The notes below the pieces were generated by a model. The model saw only the letters and a list, made by a program, of their open reading frames with translations, ran no database searches and had not been told where the DNA came from. Positions 3,788 to 16,893 of a stretch of 23,314 bases of DNA are shown here, in pieces. This stretch comes from a virus, in IMG/VR virus record IMGVR_UViG_3300013099_000093, positions 1 to 23,314 of that record; one strand, given 5' to 3'. The position numbers and the translations under genes were made by a program. Numbering within the stretch: position 1 is the stretch's first letter; each line of letters starts with the position of its first letter.

Positions 3788-4798
3788 TCAACCAGCTGCC
3801 TCGCCACCATAAACCTGAGTAACCTTATTATTAGCAAGGCTCGCAGCCCCGGCAGTAACAACCCGCTTCTGACCGATCGGCACGGTTGCCGGATGGGTGG
3901 TAAAGGTAACGATATCACCAGCCTCATATGTATCGTCCCAGAACCCGGTCGCTATGGTAAAATACGGCCTGGTATAATCAGTATTATCCGGGGCAAACTC
4001 GGTACCGACATCTCCAGACTCAATTGATCCCAGAGAGTCACCGGACAGAGTAAAATGAGTGGCATCGGTAAAGGTGAGAGTCCAGTCCTCCTCCGGAGTA
4101 CCAATATTATCAAGCTCGATGGGATAGGTTGTATCGTCAACCGTCTTGGAATTGGTAACCGATGGAGTGGTATAGCTCGGCTCAGTATCAGCGCTCGGTT
4201 TAATCAAACTCGAACACCTGGCAACAGTACCGTCAGCAGTAAAGGCATTAACAAAAGCAGCTGTCACCGTAATGGTAACAGTCAAACTGGAATAGGTAGG
4301 CGTCCCGGAAATAACCTTCGTTTCCTCAGCCCCATCGGTAGCCAGAGCATCAGTATGAGAGCAGATCTTAATCGTATCCCCATCCCGAAAAATATCATCA
4401 GTGCCCCCAGGGAGCAGATCCGCATGCTTAACATCAACATCAAAGGTGGTATCGCTGGCAGTAATATTTGCAGATAGCAGCCCGGAGCCATATTTATCAG
4501 CCGCCGGAATAGACGTAGACAGATCAGCCAGAGCGTCCCGCTGAGCCAGCTCAACCATAACGATATAATCATCAGGAGAAAGCGACTCTTTATCGTGATA
4601 CGCCTCCGGATCGATCAGTGCATAATTATCGGTATTGGTCAAAGCCCAGTGTGTTTTTGCATAATCTGTCAGCCCCGCTGCCCGCTGGGCCGATGTAACA
4701 TGAGAGAAAACATTCTGCACCACCCCGGTGTTTATCTGGATGGCTGATTTGCGTCCGTTGGAAAGCGCGCTGTATACTTTAAGATCTGATGACTGCAT
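3788..4798 (-). CDS. Minor tail protein
   Basis: This 336-residue protein starts at the ATG at 4798. AGGAGG lies upstream at an unusually long spacing of about 15 A/T-rich nt. A longer reading from 4891 overlaps the previous gene and looks non-phage-like, so I reject it. The N-terminus (MQSSDLKVYSALSNGRKSA) and the C-terminal region with TRPYFTIATGFWDDTYEAG and PIGQKRVVTAGAASLANN resemble minor tail proteins of siphovirus prophages. The middle is a Thr/Ser-rich beta domain. It follows the tape measure and a 116-aa protein, a usual position for tail-tip proteins. The exact family is not certain. Confidence 0.7.
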   Translation of the reverse strand: MQSSDLKVYSALSNGRKSAIQINTGVVQNVFSHVTSAQRAAGLTDYAKTHWALTNTDNYALIDPEAYHDKESLSPDDYIVMVELAQRDALADLSTSIPAADKYGSGLLSANITASDTTFDVDVKHADLLPGGTDDIFRDGDTIKICSHTDALATDGAEETKVISGTPTYSSLTVTITVTAAFVNAFTADGTVARCSSLIKPSADTEPSYTTPSVTNSKTVDDTTYPIELDNIGTPEEDWTLTFTDATHFTLSGDSLGSIESGDVGTEFAPDNTDYTRPYFTIATGFWDDTYEAGDIVTFTTHPATVPIGQKRVVTAGAASLANNKVTQVYGGEAAG

Positions 4799-5159: not shown

Positions 5160-7531
5160 GACGCCCCCCTGTGCATTTTCTGCAGCTCCGACAGCACCAT
5201 TTTTGCATTCTGCCTGGCTGTCTGCCTGGAGATCGGTGACACATCGCCTGCAAAATTAACAGAGAGATTATAGATATTGCCGGGCAATGCACCGGCAGCT
5301 GCAGCCACGCCCACAGACCCGCCCGCGGCAAACTTTGGCATCTGCGGCAATCGCAGGGAGTTCAGGGCGTGAAAGATACCGGCACCAAACTTTGACACCG
5401 CCTCTTTTCTGATAATATATTCCCCGGCCTCAAGCATGGCAGGTATTCTATCACCGCCGCCATAGCCACCGAGTTTTCCACCACCACGATACCCGACAGG
5501 ACCGCCAAGCGCCTTTTTCACCCGTTCATTAATCCAGATGGTGATCTCTTTATCTTTTATTCTGACAAGACGATCCTCCACCTTCTCTATATCCCTGATG
5601 GCACCAACCCGCATATTCTTCCAGTTCTCAAGCCACTTTCTCTCGGCCTCATCCATGCCTTTGGAAAGATCCTGAAAACCTGATTTTTCCTTCAGCGCCT
5701 CCATGGCATCATGGGCGGCCTGCTGCTCGGCTTTTAATATCTCAACGGCCAGCTTTCCTGCCCGTTCAGCTCCCGACATTGCAGCGGCCAGGGCCTCACC
5801 TTTGGAGACAAGGACCTCATCACCTTTTTTTACTTCCGTATTCAGGTCTGCATAGGCGTCCTTTGCCTTATCCGCCAGCTTCACGGCCTCATCAAAATTA
5901 CCGGCATCGGCGGCTTTTTTCGCAGCCTTCTCGTATTCTTCCGCCTCTTTTTTGCGGTCCTCCCAGGCGCCAAGATCTGACATCCCGGTCCTGGCCAAAG
6001 ACCGCAGCTGCTCGGCAAGTGATCTCTCCCGCCCGGCGATCTCATCCTGCAGCCGTTTCACCTCGCTTGCATACTTCTGATACTTGGCCCGCATCTCATC
6101 AAGGGCCTTGCCGGTGACCTGCTTCTGGATGTTGGCAGACTCTTTGGTGGCATCTGACATCTTCTTGGCACCGGCAACCCAGGTACCTGTCAGGCTGTCA
6201 TAGGCAACCTTCCCATCTTTCTGCGCCTGAAACAGTGCGTCCATGGTTTTATAATTTGTGCCCATGGCCACATTGATTTCTTTTAATTTTGCTGCAATTT
6301 TCGGATCGATCCAGTCTTTCTGTGATTTTGCATCGGCCTGAGCCTGGGCGAGTTCTTTTGTTGCTTTACGCCAGTCCCAGAGGATACCGACCAGGCGGCC
6401 GATTTTAATAACCGCATCGGCCGCGGCAAAAAGGATAAAACCCTTAAAGGCCAGATTGAGTATTCTTGTACCGGCCGCAACAGTAAGAAAAGCAGTCCGC
6501 AGCCGCAGCAGCCAGGGAATGATCTGCGAACCTGTCAAAACAATCCAGGCAGCATTCAAACCCCTGAACAGACTGACCAGGGACCCGATAATCTTTACCG
6601 CACCGCCAAAAATCAGCGACCACTTTGCAACCTGGATGATCATCTCCTTATTGGCAGCCACAAAGGAGATAACGCTGGCAGCTCCCCGTGCAATAGCCCC
6701 GGCCATGGCCCCCAGGTCGTCGGCATTATCACGCAGGACAATGGCAATATCTTTCAGCGATTCAACCAGCTCTTTATTCTGGCCCAGGCCGTCGCTCATC
6801 TCTTTTTTAACAAGAGCGATAGCACCGGCATAAGTATTGATCGATTCAGCAGCCCGACCCTCAAGCGGGATCGCCTGCTCCAGGAAAACCTGGTAGCGGA
6901 TCTGTGCTTTTTCTACATCACTAAGTTCCTTCCACACTTTTTCATGGGCCTCTGAAGCCGCATACCAGGCTTTGACATAATCCTCGTTCAGGGTCAGCCC
7001 CAGATATTCTGATGCCTCAGCCTCACCGCGCAGGGCTGCGGTGACTCGCTCGATCCCGCCCTCAAGTGTAGTTTTTCCTGCAGACAGATCTCCGGTCAAC
7101 TCGATAATCCGCTCCATCTGATCGGACGACAGACCGAGCCGTTTGGTCATATCAACAGTCCTGGCCGTTGCATTCTGGATATCACTTGTCGCATAGATAC
7201 GCAGTTTTTCAGACAATCTCTCGATAGACTCCGCCCACTCATCGGCAGTGCCCACACTAAACTGGCGGTTTGCAGCTTTAAGGCTGGCCTCAAGGTTATA
7301 GACAGCCCTGGATGCATCCTCCAGCATCGTGCCCACCTGGCCAATAGCCTGCAGACCGACAAAGGCACCGGCCAAACCGACAACCTGCCGGTTAAAAGCG
7401 GACATCATCTTCGTACCGTTGCCGACCTGGTTATTAAATGCCTTGATAGACCTCTGGGCACGGGTCATGGTGTTCTGCAGACCCTTGCCGTTGGCTACCA
7501 GCAGCACCTCTATGGTGGTCTTTTTTGACAT
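5156..7531 (-). CDS. Phage tail tape measure protein
   Basis: This 791-residue protein sets tail length and is expelled with the DNA during injection. The N-terminus (MSKKTTIEVLLVANGKGLQN) is typical of minor-tail/tape-measure proteins. Residues 43-67 and about 277-385 are hydrophobic, helical and Ala/Gly-rich. Residues about 470-600 are charged coiled coil. Residues 693-712 hold GDRIPAMLEAGEYIIRKEAV, a motif shared by many siphovirus tape-measure C-termini. It lies directly after the tail-chaperone gene and before small tail-tip genes, as in lambda. The start has only a weak A/G-rich ribosome site, unlike most neighbours. No frameshift or truncation is visible. Confidence 0.93.
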   Translation of the reverse strand: MSKKTTIEVLLVANGKGLQNTMTRAQRSIKAFNNQVGNGTKMMSAFNRQVVGLAGAFVGLQAIGQVGTMLEDASRAVYNLEASLKAANRQFSVGTADEWAESIERLSEKLRIYATSDIQNATARTVDMTKRLGLSSDQMERIIELTGDLSAGKTTLEGGIERVTAALRGEAEASEYLGLTLNEDYVKAWYAASEAHEKVWKELSDVEKAQIRYQVFLEQAIPLEGRAAESINTYAGAIALVKKEMSDGLGQNKELVESLKDIAIVLRDNADDLGAMAGAIARGAASVISFVAANKEMIIQVAKWSLIFGGAVKIIGSLVSLFRGLNAAWIVLTGSQIIPWLLRLRTAFLTVAAGTRILNLAFKGFILFAAADAVIKIGRLVGILWDWRKATKELAQAQADAKSQKDWIDPKIAAKLKEINVAMGTNYKTMDALFQAQKDGKVAYDSLTGTWVAGAKKMSDATKESANIQKQVTGKALDEMRAKYQKYASEVKRLQDEIAGRERSLAEQLRSLARTGMSDLGAWEDRKKEAEEYEKAAKKAADAGNFDEAVKLADKAKDAYADLNTEVKKGDEVLVSKGEALAAAMSGAERAGKLAVEILKAEQQAAHDAMEALKEKSGFQDLSKGMDEAERKWLENWKNMRVGAIRDIEKVEDRLVRIKDKEITIWINERVKKALGGPVGYRGGGKLGGYGGGDRIPAMLEAGEYIIRKEAVSKFGAGIFHALNSLRLPQMPKFAAGGSVGVAAAAGALPGNIYNLSVNFAGDVSPISRQTARQNAKMVLSELQKMHRGAS

Positions 7532-7553
7532 AATTTCTATTCTGTTCTATACT
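7525..7553 (+). promoter_or_regulatory. Near-consensus sigma-70 promoter on the plus strand
   Basis: TTGACA at 7525-7530 and TATACT at 7548-7553 are separated by exactly 17 nt. Transcription would be expected to begin near 7560, where the ATG of a plus-strand small gene lies. The -35 box overlaps the tape-measure start codon on the other strand, so coding constraint explains part of the match. The -10 and spacing are not so constrained. Confidence 0.45.
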
Positions 7554-7559
7554 TCTTGT

Positions 7560-7733
7560 ATGGAGACTCTAAAAATCATGACCGGCTGTCTGCTGCTCTT
7601 CATCGGCATCAAATCCAGCCTTATCCTGATCACCATCCTGGGCCTGGTTGCAATCCTGTCAGCGGCCAACAACCTCACCTGGCGCCTTGTCAGGTTTCTT
7701 GAGCAGACTCTGCCAGCAGATCAAGCGCGGTAA
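7560..7733 (+). CDS. Candidate small membrane protein on the opposite strand (57 aa)
   Basis: This is the only plausible plus-strand gene in the window. It encodes 57 residues with a long hydrophobic stretch at about 8-36 (CLLLFIGIKSSLILITILGL), then an amphipathic tail ending in charged residues. That fits a single-pass or hairpin inner-membrane peptide. Most codons end in C or G (ATC, CTG, GGC), like the phage genes. No Shine-Dalgarno precedes the ATG. A good promoter (7525-7553) would start the RNA at or within a base or two of the ATG, so translation may be leaderless. It fills the gap between the tail chaperone and tape measure. A moron with a lysogen-expressed role is possible; the function is unknown. 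Confidence 0.42.
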   Translation: METLKIMTGCLLLFIGIKSSLILITILGLVAILSAANNLTWRLVRFLEQTLPADQAR

Positions 7734-7829
7734 AAAACAGGCTGAGGCCATAGCTCCAGACCTGCTGATGCCCCTGGGCAATCAGGAGACAGGTACAGCG
7801 CCTAAGCTGCTGCCGAGGGTTTCTTCCAT
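7690..7829 (-). other. Probable -1 frameshift extension of tail assembly chaperone (gpGT-like)
   Basis: In the -1 frame relative to the 113-aa chaperone, reading continues without a stop past its TGA (7782) to a TGA at 7690. The end (IAQGHQQVWSYGLSLFFTAL, then DLLAESAQET) looks like folded protein. No start codon with a ribosome site serves this segment, so it is probably reached only by slippage at 7829-7834. This matches the gpG/gpGT arrangement of lambda-like tails, where a minor extended chaperone is needed for assembly on the tape measure. The extension is short compared with lambda. Confidence 0.5.
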
Positions 7830-8123
7830 TTTTTCGGCCCGAGCCACCTCCAGCCGGGCCGTCTCTAAAAAATCCGGATTGACCTCCTTGCAGGCGTCAA
7901 TCAACGGCCTCAGAGATGACGGTGTCATGGCCGACAGATCAGCCACAGACATACCGACCGACTTTGACAGCACCGCCCCGGTGAGCAGATCCTTATCAAG
8001 GATCCTGTCCAGCCAGCTCGGGACATGATCATCCTGCCCCAGGAGCGCGTCAAGCTCACTGACCATCAGCTCCTTGACCGTTATCTCTTTTCCGTCAAAC
8101 TCAATTATCTTTGAATTTCTCAT
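7782..8123 (-). CDS. Tail assembly chaperone (gpG-like)
   Basis: This 113-residue acidic, mostly helical protein has no membrane segment (starts MRNSKIIEFDGKEITVKELM). It lies between the tail tube gene and the tape measure gene, where nearly all siphoviruses encode a tail chaperone. The opening, a beta strand then TVKELMVSELDALLG, resembles tail-assembly chaperones. The ATG has GGAAGG about 10 nt upstream. Seventeen codons before the stop is an A6 run preceded by an SD-like sequence, from which a -1 shift would give a longer second product. Family identity rests on context and general resemblance. Confidence 0.7.
   Translation of the reverse strand: MRNSKIIEFDGKEITVKELMVSELDALLGQDDHVPSWLDRILDKDLLTGAVLSKSVGMSVADLSAMTPSSLRPLIDACKEVNPDFLETARLEVARAEKMEETLGSSLGAVPVS
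7829..7851 (-). promoter_or_regulatory. Slippery A6 run with upstream SD-like stimulator
   Basis: In the coding direction GGAGGTGG is followed, 9 nt later, by AAAAAA within codons GAA-AAA-ATG. An internal Shine-Dalgarno about 10-12 nt before an A-run is the layout that stimulates -1 frameshifting in E. coli dnaX. The heptamer is not a perfect X-XXY-YYZ, but Lys-tRNA on AAA can re-pair with AAA one base back. Confidence 0.42.
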
Positions 8124-11571: not shown

Positions 11572-12276
11572 TCTGTGCTCCTTGGTTGTGGTTGCGGGCG
11601 ATTTTGCCCGATGGTTCATTTCTTCTACTTTTTTTATCTCCGGCCCGGCAAGAGCCACAGCCATGGCCAGATCATCAGCCACCGCCTTGGTATCTGACGA
11701 CAGCCTGGCCGATGCAACGTTATAGGCATTGCGAGCCGATGCCATCAGCTGATCCTCATGCATGTTTGATCTGTCTTCCTCATCATCCATGTCAAACTCC
11801 ACCAGCTCATGGGCAAAACCGGCGTCGACAATGGCCTCGCCGTAAAAATATGTTTCTTCATCCATCATGGATGTAATTTCAGCAAGCCCCTTGCCGGTAA
11901 ACCTGACATAGGCACCTGCCATCATCATGGACAGCGCCGCGGTATCCTTGCCGTATTTGAGGATATAGTTATGATCCCCCCAGACGCCGCCATGCACGTT
12001 ATGGATCATGTAAACCGCGTTATCCTCGGCAATCACCTTATCTGCAGCCAGGGGAATATACGACGCAGCGGACATGGCAAAGCCTGTCAGCCTGGCCGTC
12101 GTATGCCCCGGATAGTTGCGGATCAGGTTAAACATCTCAAGACAGGCAGAAACAAGACCGCCGGGGCTGGAGATAAGCAGCTCAACGTCTCCACCATTTG
12201 CCTCTGCCAGAGCCTGGCGGACATCATCGGCCTCAACATCCCAGCCGATCACACCTGATATGGTTATTTTTTTCAT
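11119..12276 (-). CDS. Head maturation protease (ClpP-like) fused to scaffold domain
   Basis: This 385-residue protein has a ClpP/S14-like serine protease domain at residues 1 to about 165. The oxyanion-loop motif SPGG is at 37-40, the likely nucleophile is Ser69 in TGFAMSAAS, and the likely catalytic His is His92 in YMIHNVHGG. After a linker, residues about 235-385 are charged and helical (EEGRAEGRTEGAEQERKRI), typical of a capsid scaffold. The protease would trim scaffold during shell assembly. The ATG overlaps the portal stop (ATGA) and has a GAGGAAG ribosome site. The layout matches lambda gpC with nested Nu3. Confidence 0.9.
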   Translation of the reverse strand: MKKITISGVIGWDVEADDVRQALAEANGGDVELLISSPGGLVSACLEMFNLIRNYPGHTTARLTGFAMSAASYIPLAADKVIAEDNAVYMIHNVHGGVWGDHNYILKYGKDTAALSMMMAGAYVRFTGKGLAEITSMMDEETYFYGEAIVDAGFAHELVEFDMDDEEDRSNMHEDQLMASARNAYNVASARLSSDTKAVADDLAMAVALAGPEIKKVEEMNHRAKSPATTTKEHRMDLEMLKKKHPDLVAAVTDEAIAEMTEKTKADITAAMEEGRAEGRTEGAEQERKRIDEVQAQLIVGHEKVINSMAFDGKSTGGDAAKAMVAAENELRGKARDKTESEANDAVDSAEQQDGNKNKMSRKAFDSLTSSAQAKFIADGGSLVD

Positions 12277-13937
12277 TTTTCTTCCTCTTCTGTATTGGCT
12301 GCTGGCTCCGCAGGCGGCTCCACAGGCGGCTCCACAGTCATCTCCGCCCCCGTCTCTTTGGGCAGCAGGTTATTTTCTTCCAGCAGCTTCTCCTCGCGGA
12401 TGATCTGCGGCAGAGCCGCCTCCCAGTCACCGCCGATCAGCCTTGCCCGCTCTTCCGCCCTGCTCGACAGCCGGGCATTGATCCGCGCCACCGCCGAATC
12501 GATCTCTTTTTTAGGATCGAGCTGGCTGGGAGCATCACCGGTCCACAACGTTCCAAGCCACGCTTTTTTAATCAGCGGGTCCGCAAAAAAACCTGGCGCA
12601 CCAAGTCGTCCAGCTGCCACCGCCTCACTGATCACAGCCTCATATACCGGCTGACACAACGACAGCACCAGCCAGTGACGGCGCCGGGAAAAATAGTCCC
12701 AGGCTTCCTCGAATGCGGCACGCGACGCGCTATAACTCGATGTAAAATGTTTAACCAGGATCTCAAACGGCAGCTCCAGGGCCACACCGATCTGACGCAG
12801 GACAGCCAGCACAAAACCGTCAAAGGCGGTATTCGGGCGGCCGGGATTAACGGACTCTATTTTTTCTCCAGGCATCAGCCCCACAACAGAGCCGTACCCC
12901 AGCTCCATGCCGGTGGTGTCAACCTGCAGAGACGGATCGGCATCCGGATTTTCAGCGGTAGGTGCCGGGCCAAAATTTGGCGACCCGGTTTCATTGGTAA
13001 CAAAAACGGTAAGCATGCCGGTAACAACCGCGGCCATCACCTCTGCATCGGTATATCTTCCGAGCTGCTTGATCAGCTCAACAACTGTGGACAGATAGGG
13101 CACGCCTCTCGACTGCCCTGGGCGGACCTTGTCAAAAAGATGCAGGACCAGAGGATCGCCGTCAGAGCCGAAACTCTTTAAGCTCGACCATTTATATTGT
13201 TTTTTATTTCTGGCAAGAAAGGCAAAACTTGAATTGCCGGGATGAACATTCAGCACATGATATTTTTCCGGGGCACCATATTTATCCTTACTGATGCCAC
13301 CCGCCATCTCGGCTGAATCGGCAACAAAATCTTTATTGCAGACCCTGGCGGCCTCGATCATCTGCAGCTTTAAGGTATATGGGGACCCTGCCCGCTTAAA
13401 TCTGGGCATGTTGACAAACACATCACCATCCTCCAGGGCCTTTAGAAATACCAGTCCCTGAAACAGGGAAAAAGACAGCTGCCGCTCAGAATCAATCTCT
13501 TTTGTTTCTGTGGCCAGCCGAAACTCACGCTCCGCATCACGTTCCCACTGGTCCGCCTGCTCATCAGACATACCCAGCAGATCACGGTCAACCTGGGATT
13601 TAACATAGAGGCCGGTGCCAACAACCTTGGTTATATTTGTTTTAATGGCCCCTGCAGCAATGGCATTGTTGCGGCAGAGATGCTGCGACTCTTCTCGCAG
13701 GGTAGGAAGATCAGGCAGGATAGCGGAATCGGCGGAAAGCTCACGCCTGGATCCAAGCTGGTTGGCCCGGCGTCGTTTATCGGCCCCGGTGTATGCCCCC
13801 GACATGGCCAGCCGCACACGCTCCCGGTAACGACCACCACCTTTTTCAGGGGAAAAATAATTGACAACCCGGTCTAAAAGAGTGACCGGCACCGAGACAG
13901 ACTTGCCATCGACGGTTATTTCTTTGGAGAGTTTCAT
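12273..13937 (-). CDS. Portal protein, lambda family
   Basis: This 554-residue protein forms the dodecameric DNA channel at the capsid vertex and docks the terminase. Conserved lambda-portal segments include HLCRNNAIAAGAIKTNITKV near residues 87-104 and DKVRPGQSRGVPYLSTVVEL at 269-288. The start is the ATG at 13937, with GGAGGTGAT 6 nt upstream and an ATGA overlap with the preceding gene; a longer reading from 13967 is unnecessary. The C-terminus is Pro/Glu-rich (EPPVEPPAEP) and encoded by a 12-bp tandem duplication (12311-12334), probably a flexible tail. The protease gene follows with another ATGA overlap. Confidence 0.93.
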   Translation of the reverse strand: MKLSKEITVDGKSVSVPVTLLDRVVNYFSPEKGGGRYRERVRLAMSGAYTGADKRRRANQLGSRRELSADSAILPDLPTLREESQHLCRNNAIAAGAIKTNITKVVGTGLYVKSQVDRDLLGMSDEQADQWERDAEREFRLATETKEIDSERQLSFSLFQGLVFLKALEDGDVFVNMPRFKRAGSPYTLKLQMIEAARVCNKDFVADSAEMAGGISKDKYGAPEKYHVLNVHPGNSSFAFLARNKKQYKWSSLKSFGSDGDPLVLHLFDKVRPGQSRGVPYLSTVVELIKQLGRYTDAEVMAAVVTGMLTVFVTNETGSPNFGPAPTAENPDADPSLQVDTTGMELGYGSVVGLMPGEKIESVNPGRPNTAFDGFVLAVLRQIGVALELPFEILVKHFTSSYSASRAAFEEAWDYFSRRRHWLVLSLCQPVYEAVISEAVAAGRLGAPGFFADPLIKKAWLGTLWTGDAPSQLDPKKEIDSAVARINARLSSRAEERARLIGGDWEAALPQIIREEKLLEENNLLPKETGAEMTVEPPVEPPAEPAANTEEEEK

Positions 13938-14152
13938 CGCGGGATCACCTCCGCTAACTGCATACATCCCGACCGGGAAAGTCTTTGCACTCTGCTGTTC
14001 CAGATTTCCACCCCAGCCTTCACCTCGTCAAGGTTCGCCCTGGTCAGCCTGCGGCCGTCAATAACAACCTCCTGGCCCTCCAGGATCCTATCCTCGGCAG
14101 CCATGTAAAGAGTCAGCTTCTTTTCTGCAATCTCAAGAGTTATACCAGCCAT
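13934..14152 (-). CDS. Small head-joining protein (gpW/DUF6148-like)
   Basis: This 72-residue protein starts MAGITLEIAEKKLTLYMAAE and continues with VVIDGRRLTRANLDEV and KAGVEIWNSRVQRLSR. This is the pattern of the small gpW-like/DUF6148 proteins encoded just before lambda-type portals: two helices around a short DGRRLTR beta hairpin. The role is probably head completion or connection. AGGGG lies 7 nt before the ATG but is entirely inside a long hairpin stem (14155-14211). The stop overlaps the portal start (ATGA). Lambda has the same W-portal order. Confidence 0.8.
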   Translation of the reverse strand: MAGITLEIAEKKLTLYMAAEDRILEGQEVVIDGRRLTRANLDEVKAGVEIWNSRVQRLSRSGCMQLAEVIPR

Positions 14153-14154
14153 AA

Positions 14155-14211
14155 AAAAACCCCTTTTATCTGATGATGCCCCGTAGGATACATCAACTAA
14201 AAGAGGTTTTT
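14155..14211. promoter_or_regulatory. Long hairpin masking the ribosome site; possible bidirectional terminator
   Basis: On the coding strand AAAAACCTCTTTTA-GT-TGATG pairs with CATCA-TCAGA-TAAAAGGGGTTTTT: 14 outer and 5 inner pairs around a 2x5 internal loop and a 12-nt loop. The stem contains the AAAAGGGG ribosome site of the next gene. It ends in a T7 tract two bases before the ATG. The plus-strand reading also ends in TTTTT. It could terminate transcription from both sides, or act as a leader that controls the portal operon. Its position is at the edge of the accessory block. Confidence 0.6.
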
Positions 14212-14299
14212 AAAGTGACCTTTTGCTGGCATTTGCCGGTATTTGCAAACTAAATGAAAATAATTTGCTTATTTTTTTATGTTTTTTGTTATCAGGGCA

Positions 14300-14320
14300 A
14301 AAAGCACTGTTAATCAGTGG
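14300..14320 (-). terminator. Weak Rho-independent terminator candidate after the methylase gene
   Basis: Just after the methylase stop, CACTG-ATTAA-CAGTG forms a 5-bp stem followed by C and TTTTT. The stem is short, so termination would be weak. The rest of the gap (14212-14299) is A+T-rich and holds several GCAAA(T) copies; I see no convincing promoter there. Confidence 0.35.
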
Positions 14321-14761
14321 TTATGTTGCTTCCGTTAATTTATAAGCCCCTGCGCGAAAAATGATAACGGCGCTTGGGAATGGGGCGCTGTTTTTATGCC
14401 CCCCAAACTTTAATCTACCCCTTAATAGTCGTATTTCGCCCTTCATTGCGTAATCGTGCCACCAAGCCGTATCTGTTCTTGCTGGCACTAAGCAAACAAC
14501 GGTTGCGCCCTGTAAACTGCTCTCGTACGCCTTCTGCATCCACGCCTTTATTGCCCTGCCGTACGGCGGGTTCATGAAAACCGCTGATTGCCCCCAGTTT
14601 TGAATTAATCCGTCTTGTTCTGGCGTGTAAAAATCTTTGCATTTTGCGTTTTCAGCTATCGCGCAAGGATCTAAATCAAACTTAAACTCAACGTTTAATC
14701 CATTAAATAGCTCTTGCGGCGTAGCCCACATATCAGTTTCGCTTTTAAAATGTATATTCAT
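14321..14761 (-). CDS. dam: Phage-type DNA N6-adenine methyltransferase (Dam family)
   Basis: This 146-residue enzyme methylates adenine in DNA using S-adenosylmethionine. The start MNIHFKSETDMWATPQELF and the segment FDLDPCAIAENAKCKDFYT are typical of the small phage Dam family. The catalytic motif NPPYG is at residues about 64-68 (VFMNPPYGRAIKAWMQKA). Further motifs CLVPARTDTAWWHDY and GRLKFGG match the rest of the family, which is normally about this length. The stop codon lies in an attC-core-like GTTATGT. The gene starts 16 nt after the end of a full attC site, as the first gene of a cassette would. It may protect phage DNA from host restriction. Confidence 0.9.
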   Translation of the reverse strand: MNIHFKSETDMWATPQELFNGLNVEFKFDLDPCAIAENAKCKDFYTPEQDGLIQNWGQSAVFMNPPYGRAIKAWMQKAYESSLQGATVVCLVPARTDTAWWHDYAMKGEIRLLRGRLKFGGHKNSAPFPSAVIIFRAGAYKLTEAT

Positions 14762-14777
14762 AATTTCTAATCTCGCA

Positions 14778-14837
14778 ACATAACAACAAAATCAACCCGA
14801 CCGCAAAAGACGCGGCGGCTTATTTAAAACGTTATCT
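14778..14837 (-). other. Complete integron attC recombination site (59-be)
   Basis: On the minus strand the 60 bp divide as AGATAAC (R''), 9-nt spacer, AAGCCGC (L''), 13-nt centre, GTCGGGTT (L' with one extra T), 9-nt spacer, GTTATGT (R'). These are the same segment lengths and the same extrahelical base as the attC of the aadA1 cassette. L'' and L' pair except for one G-G. R'' and R' pair except for one base. The centre adds a CGC/GCG stem. R'' contains the TAA stop of the membrane-protein gene. The extra base lies in L', which orients the site with the genes. Confidence 0.85.
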
Positions 14838-15080
14838 TCCCAAAATGACTTCTTGGGTTCTCTCAGTTTTCTTGCCAATAAAGCACAAGACATCTGCCAC
14901 CCAGAAACAACAAACAAACTTCCACCAGAGGGCATCTGTGATAGTGACATCCATAAAAACAGACGGTGCCGCACCAAGCCAGATTGCCCGTGAATTAATA
15001 AAAAACCAGATAACAAAGCGTTTCAAGCGACCTGCGGTCGCAGCGGTTTCCCGATACTCTTTAATGTTTTCTGTACTCAT
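14832..15080 (-). CDS. Small membrane protein in cassette block
   Basis: This 82-residue protein starts at the ATG at 15080, with GGAG 6 nt upstream (MSTENIKEYRETAATAG). A longer reading from 15128 lacks support. A basic segment (RLKRF) leads into hydrophobic residues at about 20-40 (FVIWFFINSRAIWLGAAPSVF) and 51-64 (WKFVCCFWVADVLCFIG), suggesting two membrane passes with a charged cytoplasmic end. I do not recognise the family. Holin-like size and topology are possible but no lysin gene is adjacent. Its TAA stop lies inside the R'' box of the complete attC, a classic cassette feature. Confidence 0.65.
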   Translation of the reverse strand: MSTENIKEYRETAATAGRLKRFVIWFFINSRAIWLGAAPSVFMDVTITDALWWKFVCCFWVADVLCFIGKKTERTQEVILGR

Positions 15081-15101
15081 TATTTTCTCCAAAATTATGG
15101 G

Positions 15102-15137
15102 GTTAATACCACAGGCCCCTGAACTCAAACGTTATGC
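15102..15137 (-). other. attC half-site at the end of the 65-aa gene
   Basis: On the minus strand GCATAAC-GTTTGAGTT-CAGGGGC has the R''-spacer-L'' lengths (7-9-7) of the complete attC at 14778-14837, and its spacer closely resembles that of aadA1 (GCTTGAGTT). The matching L'-R' half is missing. The gene's TAA is within GCATAAC. A second core-like 7-mer, GTTAATA on the plus strand, lies at 15102-15108. Confidence 0.5.
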
Positions 15138-15329
15138 GTCTTCCGGTGAAAACTCTTTGCACATATCGTGTATTTCCTCAACCCCCCACTGTAAGCCCTC
15201 GCGGTGTATGGCATCCGTTAGCGGTAGTTTCGCAGTTTGCAAGTAGTTTTCACATTTTGCTTTTATCTCGCATAACAAGTAAATTAACTCAGACTCGCGA
15301 GCACCTGCGTTTTCTTGTGATCCTGTCAT
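15132..15329 (-). CDS. Small hypothetical protein in cassette block (65 aa)
   Basis: This 65-residue soluble, mostly helical protein starts MTGSQENAGARESELIYLL. It contains CEIKAKCENYLQTAKL and GLQWGVEEIHDMC and ends in an acidic tail. AGAGGGG lies 5 nt before the ATG. I do not recognise the family. Small orphan proteins of this kind are common in integron cassettes. Its TAA stop is embedded in an attC half-site (GCATAAC). Confidence 0.65.
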   Translation of the reverse strand: MTGSQENAGARESELIYLLCEIKAKCENYLQTAKLPLTDAIHREGLQWGVEEIHDMCKEFSPEDA

Positions 15330-15362
15330 CTTGTCCCCTCTGCTTTAGTTGGTTGCCAGCTT

Positions 15363-15393
15363 GTTAGGCTCGCAGGTTATTAGGGCGTTATGC
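15363..15393 (-). other. attC half-site at the end of the ASCH gene
   Basis: On the minus strand GCATAAC is followed by a 9-nt spacer and ACCTGCG (R''-spacer-L'' lengths). No pairing L' or R' follows. The ASCH gene's TAA lies in GCATAAC. A second, exact RYYYAAC core (GCCTAAC, plus GTTAGGC at 15363-15369) begins 24 nt further on. Confidence 0.45.
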
Positions 15394-15729
15394 CTCTTGA
15401 ATCTTACCAAGTTGCAAAATATAAACTTCCTGTTCTGGTGGTGCGCCCCATTCAACTATGCCAAGGCTACGCATGATGCCCTTCAGTTTTACAAACATTT
15501 TAGGGCTATCTTTCGAGTACCCATTGCGGAAACAAATTGTGTCATACTTCTTATTCAGTCGTTTGTTCCAGTACGGCTTTATTTCTCTATATTCTTCTAT
15601 CTTTACTCCTGATTTAATCATATCAAACCATTTCTTTTTCAGGGTAAGATGAAGAATTTTGCCATAACAAGGCGCTTCAGTGGAACCCAAGCAGCGCGGC
15701 TCTTCGGTTGGTCTTTCTTGCTTTTCCAT
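15388..15729 (-). CDS. ASCH/PUA-like domain protein
   Basis: This 113-residue protein is recognisable by LHLTLKKKWFDMIKSGVKIE, then EEYREIKPYWNKRL and YDTICFRNGYS. This is the pattern of the ASCH (PUA-like) fold, in which Lys and Glu residues of the K-x-x-E-Y-R-E-I-x-P-Y-W segment line the ligand cleft. ASCH proteins bind RNA or modified nucleosides; some are amidohydrolases on N4-acetylcytidine. Small prophage and cassette versions have no established role. The first 20 residues are poorly conserved in appearance, so initiation could be later, but AGGAGC precedes this ATG. Its stop lies in an attC-like core. Confidence 0.75.
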   Translation of the reverse strand: MEKQERPTEEPRCLGSTEAPCYGKILHLTLKKKWFDMIKSGVKIEEYREIKPYWNKRLNKKYDTICFRNGYSKDSPKMFVKLKGIMRSLGIVEWGAPPEQEVYILQLGKIQEA

Positions 15730-15755
15730 GTCTCTTGCTCCTGCTAAATTCGTCG

Positions 15756-15792
15756 GTTAAATGCTTGGGTCAACTGAGCTGAAACGTTATCT
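15756..15792 (-). other. attC half-site at the right border of the cassette block
   Basis: On the minus strand AGATAAC-GTTTCAGCT-CAGTTGA has 7-9-7 spacing, and AGATAACGTTT is identical to the start of the complete attC (14837-14827). The stop of the 78-aa gene is in AGATAAC. A second exact core, GTTAAAT on the plus strand, lies at 15756-15762. No L'-R' half is present. Confidence 0.5.
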
Positions 15793-16023
15793 TTCTTCCA
15801 ACCTCACCAAAACATCTTCCATCATCGCATAGCGGGTAACATCCTTCCATACCCAGGCCGTCCAGACATCCTCAAATTCATCTGAATAATAAAGGGTCTC
15901 TCCATCCTCTCCCAAAAAAACCAGGGCACAATCAGATCCCTCTTTTGTCTCAACCTCGACCAGCATATTACCCTCCGGAGTCTCTCCATTGGGTACACGC
16001 CAGGTGACCAGTGTTTTCATCAT
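15787..16023 (-). CDS. Small acidic protein, unknown function (78 aa)
   Basis: This 78-residue protein is acidic (VEVETKEGSD, LGEDGETLYYSDEFED) with a tryptophan-rich centre (VWTAWVWKDVTRYA). The first ATG overlaps the upstream stop (ATGA) and AGGGG lies 7 nt before it, so its 5' end belongs to the phage operon. Its stop codon is in an attC-core-like AGATAAC, so its 3' end is the right border of the cassette block; the last codons may come from the inserted DNA. I do not recognise the family. Confidence 0.65.
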   Translation of the reverse strand: MMKTLVTWRVPNGETPEGNMLVEVETKEGSDCALVFLGEDGETLYYSDEFEDVWTAWVWKDVTRYAMMEDVLVRLEER

Positions 16024-16670
16024 AATTCACCCCTCATCATCCGCAAATCTTCCATATCAATGCCGGTAATATCTCCATAAATCATCCCCTCGGCAAACTT
16101 CCAGGCCAGAGCATGCAGGTCGACCCCATGATCTGCACCATTTCCACTACCACCAGCCTCTCTCAGCCTGTCATTTTTAACTTCAAGGGCCCCGATTTTA
16201 CCGGTGGCGTCTGCCAGAGAGATAGTCGCTGATTCAAGCTGCTCCCGCAATTTCCTAATTGTTTTATTCGCCGCTGTAACATCCCCGCCACCATCGCCCT
16301 GGGGAAAACTGTCAAACTCCCTCAATACCTCAACAACCATCTCCGGCCTTTTACTGCACATCCCCCTCAGCATCCCGCATGTAGGACAAACAAGTTTACC
16401 TTGAGTATTTCTAAGATTTGCCTGCCGACCACACTGTTTACATTCTCCAGGTTTATCTGTAGCCACTTCGCCCTCCTGTTTTTCTTTTTTAATATCCATT
16501 ATGGTGAGTTCTTTCGGCCTGGTTTGCCCCGCGCACCGAAAACAAAACTGATATGTCGGTACACCACTCGAATTCGCCTCTCTTTTTGCCTTGCATATCG
16601 CCAGAAAAGCATCTTCCGAAAGCGTTGTTTTAAGCCCCATCGTTGCAGGGCATTGTGCCTGTAACTGCAT
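16020..16670 (-). CDS. Zinc-ribbon and coiled-coil protein, unrecognised (216 aa)
   Basis: The likely start is the ATG at 16670, with GCGGGG upstream; a reading from 16685 depends on TTG. Two cysteine modules are visible: C26 with C43-x-x-C46, and C77-x-x-C80 with C95-x-x-C98 (CKQCGRQANLRNTQG then LVCPTCG), the second a clear zinc ribbon. Residues about 130-170 are a coiled coil (RKLREQLESATISLADATGK). The protein may bind nucleic acid as an oligomer. It lies after the terminase and HTH genes, so control of late expression or packaging is conceivable, but this is inference. Confidence 0.65.
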   Translation of the reverse strand: MQLQAQCPATMGLKTTLSEDAFLAICKAKREANSSGVPTYQFCFRCAGQTRPKELTIMDIKKEKQEGEVATDKPGECKQCGRQANLRNTQGKLVCPTCGMLRGMCSKRPEMVVEVLREFDSFPQGDGGGDVTAANKTIRKLREQLESATISLADATGKIGALEVKNDRLREAGGSGNGADHGVDLHALAWKFAEGMIYGDITGIDMEDLRMMRGEL

Positions 16671-16674
16671 ACAA

Positions 16675-16893
16675 CTACCCCGCAATCAAGCCGTCAATAA
16701 ACCGGTCAACATCAGCCACATCAACCCATCCCCTCTCATCACGCAGCCGCTCAAGACATTTCTGCAGCCTGAAAAGCTCAGCTGTAATCGCGTTCATCCT
16801 GTCATTAACTGGACCGTCAACAGTATGAGCCGAAACATGGATCATCTGCTCAATAAGACCGCACACCCCGACAAACTTCTTTTCATCCGCCAT
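16675..16893 (-). CDS. Small helical protein, unknown function (72 aa)
   Basis: The ATG at 16893 overlaps the preceding stop (TGATG) and has GGAGGG 4 nt upstream; a start at 16905 would have no such site. The protein (MADEKKFVGVCGLIEQMIHV) is helical, with AITAELFRLQKCLERLRDERG suggesting a short coiled coil. No family is recognised. It sits between a small HTH protein and a zinc-ribbon protein and is probably co-translated with both. Confidence 0.6.
   Translation of the reverse strand: MADEKKFVGVCGLIEQMIHVSAHTVDGPVNDRMNAITAELFRLQKCLERLRDERGWVDVADVDRFIDGLIAG

Follow-up and report, generated by a model that had tools for sequence, protein, structure and literature searches.

Probable integron-type gene cassettes, reversed relative to their attC sites, in the operon of a tailed phage

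What are the small genes that lie between the terminase and portal genes of this phage, and how could they have entered the operon without damaging it? The window (the whole stretch of DNA that was analysed, 23,314 bases) is a virus record that is complete as filed; it represents a fragment of a tailed phage and may be incomplete. Its primase-helicase, terminase, portal and tail genes are all located on the minus strand of the record. A sequence-only reading had noticed one complete attC and five consecutive genes ending with TAA inside a core-like heptamer, and had proposed that integron cassettes were inserted into the phage genome. Our analysis supports this proposal, with four full-length attC sites instead of one. 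We consider it likely that positions 14320–15792 hold four integron cassettes without an integrase (a CALIN), inserted into a tailed phage by a host integrase at a stop codon.

Anatomy of the array

Read along the plus strand, the region consists of an edge, G|TTATGT (14320), followed by the reversed Dam gene, an attC, the reversed membrane-protein gene, an attC, the reversed orphan gene, an attC, the reversed ASCH-like gene, an attC and the phage gene at 15787–16023. The features are as follows.

12273–13967, minus strand: portal protein (PF05136, E = 2e-86)
13934–14152, minus strand: head-tail adaptor (DUF6148), which flanks the cargo interval
14305–14319, minus strand: terminator-like hairpin, directly after the array
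14320–14326, plus strand: left array edge G|TTATGT, an R'-like half only, without attC (p = 0.58)
14321–14761, minus strand: cassette 1, phage-type DNA N-6-adenine methyltransferase (Dam; PF05869, E = 6e-31; phrog_111, E = 2e-57)
14778–14837, plus strand: attC of cassette 1 (60 bp), with two canonical extra bases (covariance E = 0.06)
14832–15080, minus strand: cassette 2, 82-aa protein with two hydrophobic stretches and no family, a membrane protein by inspection; start and ribosome site inside the attC at 15008–15137
15008–15137, plus strand: attC of cassette 2 (130 bp), the weakest of the four (covariance E = 0.3; shuffle p = 0.002)
15132–15329, minus strand: cassette 3, 65-aa orphan without relatives; start codon inside the attC at 15270–15393
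15270–15393, plus strand: attC of cassette 3 (124 bp), top covariance score (E = 3.8e-6)
15388–15729, minus strand: cassette 4, ASCH-like protein (phrog_625)
15662–15792, plus strand: attC of cassette 4 (131 bp), whose R' box coincides with the phage gene's stop codon (E = 0.0036; shuffle p = 0.001)
15787–16023, minus strand: phage gene whose native stop codon is the inferred insertion target; its C-terminus matches the homologue in the relative L002
17152–19056, minus strand: terminase large subunit (PF05876/PF20454)

On the plus strand, each cassette is a self-contained unit that starts with TTATGC, TTATCT or TTATGT, continues with a reversed gene and ends with an attC; the initial TTA is the reversed stop codon, and in this array the R' box (G|TTA) includes the stop codon TAA. 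Three of the four cassettes have their start codon and ribosome site inside the attC; the Dam gene starts 17 bp before its attC. The first 23 residues of the ASCH-like protein are read from attC sequence, and its conserved part begins just past the attC. The name ASCH rests on phrog_625, which is of unknown function, and on remote plasmid relatives annotated as ASCH; there was no Pfam match. We found no relatives of the membrane and orphan proteins in viral contigs, and none of the membrane protein in plasmids either.

Four attC sites within 1.0 kb and no intI meet the criterion for a CALIN (at least two close attC sites, no integrase), as judged with our own model rather than that of IntegronFinder and on a record that may be a fragment. 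The criterion for a complete integron (intI and attI beside the array) is not met, as we observed no intI, no recognisable attI and no attC at 14320; a search of the 23,314-base record for an integron integrase (TIGR02249) returned no match, and neither did an Rfam search. Typical cassettes carry gene and attC in the same direction, and this criterion is not met either: each of the four genes is antisense to its attC. An inserted array should have one attC per gene and a left edge that lacks attC, which is the layout of these four cassettes.

The five gene ends on which the sequence-only reading relied are indeed exceptional, since all five read TAAC, compared with 1 of the 23 other genes in the window (Fisher p = 6e-5). 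Its array of five junctions holds for the four cassette genes, but the fifth gene (15787–16023) is a phage gene and position 14320 is only the array edge. It had also described the genes as AT-richer. The local GC content is 43.7% compared with 51.6% elsewhere; however, this is only about the 5th percentile of windows of the same size and is weak evidence alone.

Detection of the attC sites

The 60-bp attC proposed by the sequence-only reading, with its likeness to aadA1, was recovered at exactly 14778–14837. Pairing of its left arm, AAATCAACCCGACCGC, with AAAT-AAGCCG-CCGC leaves C and A as two extra bases, at the same places as in aadA1. The minus strand of this site forms a hairpin of the attC type (z = –3.5). 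However, three more full-length sites had been missed, as had the antisense orientation (the attC top strand is the plus strand). A structural scan identified the junctions 15131, 15387 and 15786 as the 3' ends of these three sites (124–131 bp, plus strand). When R' was fixed at the junctions of the sequence-only reading, the four sites gave P values of 0.001, <0.001, 0.002 and 0.002 (dinucleotide shuffles, adjoining 150 bp), and the same test did not support an attC ending at junction 14320 (p = 0.58). An initial reading, in which the junctions were minus-strand left halves of attC, was abandoned after the plus-strand scan.

All four sites display complementary R'' and R' boxes, with AAC at the end of the former and GTT at the beginning of the latter, and L'' and L' boxes with an extra base in L''. 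By eye, there are two canonical extra bases at 14778, two at 15662 and one at 15008. These extra bases, together with the TAACAA...CGTTA ends, fix the orientation of the attC sites. The minus-strand fold of 15662–15792 has the right shape without an energy excess over shuffled sequences, and the long sites at 15008–15137 and 15270–15393 fold no better than shuffles.

Because the structural scoring had been written after the sequence was seen, we trained a covariance model on 21 attC sites of other origin, none of them from the window (a Shewanella phage integron, a Vibrio phage integron, Tetrasphaera phage TJE1 and one bacterial integron). Such a search had been put forward as a check on the array, and it found the four sites: the four top-ranking matches in the window were precisely 15270–15393, 15662–15792, 14778–14837 and 15008–15137, in this order, all of full length and on the plus strand. 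Applied with default filters to 91 other phage loci (865 kb), the model had no hits at a cut-off of E = 10; for the window itself, filters were switched off. The model is small, the E-values of the tool are rough, and the site at 15008–15137 (E = 0.3) would be insufficient alone.

Insertion site and the terminase–portal interval

The flanking gene at 15787–16023 is undamaged; it ends where its homologue in L002 ends, and its terminus is located exactly at the right array edge. As the two genes end level with each other, we infer that its stop codon was the target and that the insertion cost nothing. If the array is taken out and the flanks are brought together, the sequence would read GAAAGATAACCACTGATTAACAGTGCTTTTT, in which the stop codon of 15787–16023 is followed by the terminator-like hairpin at 14305–14319. 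The exact empty site was not found in any relative, and the target was therefore reconstructed as GAAAGATAACCACTG.

We propose that a host integron integrase, which is inferred, may have recombined the cassettes into the phage at G|TTATCT, overlapping the stop codon of 15787–16023, and that later insertions may have occurred at R' boxes created by earlier ones. With the complement of a stop codon (TAA|C) as the target, such insertions would leave all coding sequence in place. Since the target is antisense to the operon, only reversed-gene cassettes would be transcribed together with the phage genes, and we infer that these were therefore kept by selection. Moreover, antisense G|TTA is present at every TAAC gene end, whereas sense G|TT is usually intragenic in a compact operon, so that reversed cassettes would be the ones to survive. 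The cargo (Dam methylase, ASCH-like protein and membrane protein) would probably be co-expressed with the structural genes as far as the terminator at 14305–14319; our guess, from gene type alone, is that it counters host defences or aids takeover. Reversal also makes the recombinogenic bottom strand of attC the gene-sense strand, which is the opposite of normal integrons.

The interval from the small DNA-binding-type gene after the terminase to the portal gene measures about 0.1–4.3 kb across 37 related loci, and in a dozen of them it is almost empty. The expectation that its content would differ among relatives was met: the Dam, membrane-protein and orphan genes occur there in none of the 37 loci, and a remote (32–37%) ASCH relative is located near the interval in only two. 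One relative (L084) carries a different cassette near the same end of the interval, a methyltransferase gene with its own single attC, and this gene is also antisense to the attC. No attC was detected in the relatives L001, L002, L086, L101, L106 and L112, with cargo or an empty interval. Considered as a hotspot, the interval (14153–16893 in the window, and its counterparts in L001, L002, L084, L086, L101 and L106) contains HNH endonucleases, ASCH and methyltransferase-like genes, mostly with no attC.

A search for the four genes in chromosomal integrons had also been suggested, and here we obtained no match to a bacterial integron; bacterial ASCH homologues had no adjoining attC, and an integron integrase was present in 5 of 10 bacterial genomes with such homologues. 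As regards the host, one genome from the phylum of a 'Deltaproteobacteria' MAG encodes a portal relative (59%) and contains no integron integrase.

Orientation in other phages and relation to known systems

We scanned contigs of viral relatives of the ASCH, Dam and methyltransferase genes with the attC model, and ran an unbiased exact pattern for the canonical attC left arm over the viral collection. Antisense genes were found in the window, L084, L104, L007 (Mu-like), L008, L011 (RecT), L014, L031, L071, L246, L221, L307, L358, L359, L360, L363 and L364. They were also found, by the model together with published annotation, in Pseudoalteromonas phage PH101 (L374, 25919–27987) and in MW202573 (L372, 2281–2703). 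Sense genes were found in L022 and TJE1; L293, L349 and L357 were not callable, and L361 and L305, which carry intI, were set aside. The tally including the window is thus about 19 antisense to 2 sense, and about 18 of the 20 other callable phage contigs are antisense (18 versus 2, p = 4e-4). The window, L084 and L104 are related, some contigs were found via homologous genes, and the orientation rests on open reading frames. In phage contigs lacking intI, the stop codon of the antisense gene is located exactly in R' (G|TTA) at 26 of 45 sites, compared with 0 of 21 sites in ordinary control arrays (p = 2e-6), where sense genes end at R'' instead.

This orientation could be an artefact if the attC strand had been misread and the cassettes were ordinary forward ones, with a mirror-image attC, the stop codon in R'' and the next start after R'. 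The attC site is near-palindromic, 15270–15393 scored about equally on both strands in a simple scan, and some starts (Dam, L007 and L307) are located just past the attC, as in forward cassettes. However, the covariance matches are confined to the plus strand, save for one partial overlap of 6.8 bits on the minus strand, and under a misread strand the start codons of three of the four genes would belong to the adjacent cassette. The strand assignment is also supported by the extra bases, which are located on the left arm at 29 phage sites and on the right arm at 8, and the exact canonical left-arm pattern recovers the same strand in other phages. We therefore regard a misread strand as improbable. 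The suggestion that there are no cassettes at all, only the usual accessory genes of a phage that happen to end in hairpins or terminators, gains something from the fact that cargo between terminase and portal is common in this family and mostly lacks attC. It does not account for four consecutive attC sites on one strand, at gene stops, with canonical extra bases and zero false positives in 865 kb; we find it scarcely tenable, and at the level of sequence it is already refuted.

Instead of being inserted by an integrase, a ready-made array might have reached the phage as a copy from a bacterial integron, through homologous or illegitimate recombination. Phages are mosaic, the flank is a hotspot for cargo that otherwise mostly lacks attC, and whole pieces of integrons have been captured by two Vibrio phages (Qi et al. 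2023, PMC9892861). Yet both edges fall exactly at G|TTA and the flanking gene has kept its full length up to the stop codon; moreover, we found these genes in no bacterial array, and none of the 21 control sites belongs to a reversed-gene array. Copying thus seems rather unlikely, and we continue to favour insertion of the cassettes by a host integrase at the stop codon.

Cassette clusters in phages, including methylase cargo, have already been published, and five of six tested phage attC sites were active with IntI1 (Qi et al. 2023, PMC9892861). The phage CALINs (Tetrasphaera phage TJE1, Pseudoalteromonas phage PH101 and Polaribacter phage P12002L) are likewise attC clusters without intI that carry DNA methyltransferases; compared with those of Qi et al., the window adds a new phage family, new genes and a stop codon built into R'. 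The antisense orientation is undescribed in that study, although our model finds it in their PH101 and MW202573 (TJE1 is sense), and we found no description of an antisense rule there or in the open-licence literature that was searched. Sedentary chromosomal arrays (Vibrio, Shewanella) have the same attC architecture, and training sites find the phage sites; however, their genes run with the attC, whereas those of the window run against it, without intI or attI. In the Vibrio cholerae integron, strand position at the fork has been linked to the excision rate (PMC11023631). Loot et al. (2024, Nat Microbiol; as cited in PMC12444791) are reported to have described cassette insertion at non-classical attG sites. 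There, attC cassettes likewise enter a genome outside attI, but in bacterial genomes, whereas the window is a phage with an inferred insertion at the complement of a stop codon. What looks new is therefore the architecture, with genes antisense to attC and the stop TAA in the R' box.

The reversal suggests a route by which viruses gain such genes while their own remain undamaged. If it were general, phage operons would be integron-like arrays without attI, driven by phage promoters, with the host integrase as the sole missing part; it would also provide a simple rule for cassette entry points in compact genomes and a defined route for methylases and host-takeover genes between unrelated phages, perhaps back to bacterial integrons. 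We lean, with considerable reservation, towards the broader idea that phages keep their own pool of reversed-gene cassettes, in which the R' box supplies part of the gene as its stop codon and the attC often contains the start codon, and for which any TAAC stop in an operon would be a landing site where host-integrase insertion is harmless, and which are exchanged between unrelated phages. In support of exchange, an ASCH cassette is present among attC sites in five different phages including the window; the other four are unrelated phages (L007, L011, L014 and L031), among them a transposing Mu-like phage, a RecT phage and a primase-helicase phage.

The ASCH-like proteins encoded among attC sites in these four phages share 61–73% identity with the window copy. 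In some ASCH cassettes the ATG start is located in the complement of the R'' box (GTTATG; L031, about position 2985), and the gene spans from box to box. Regarding the two contigs set aside, the 9.3-kb 'viral' contig L361 has intI at 1596–2540 and attC in the usual divergent layout, and may be a bacterial integron misfiled as a virus. In L305, an intact intI (7048–7986) is located beside attC sites at 3845–3911 and 5808–5870 with reversed genes, and the contig contains a RecE-like exonuclease gene; this may be a phage that carries an entire integron with its cassettes reversed.
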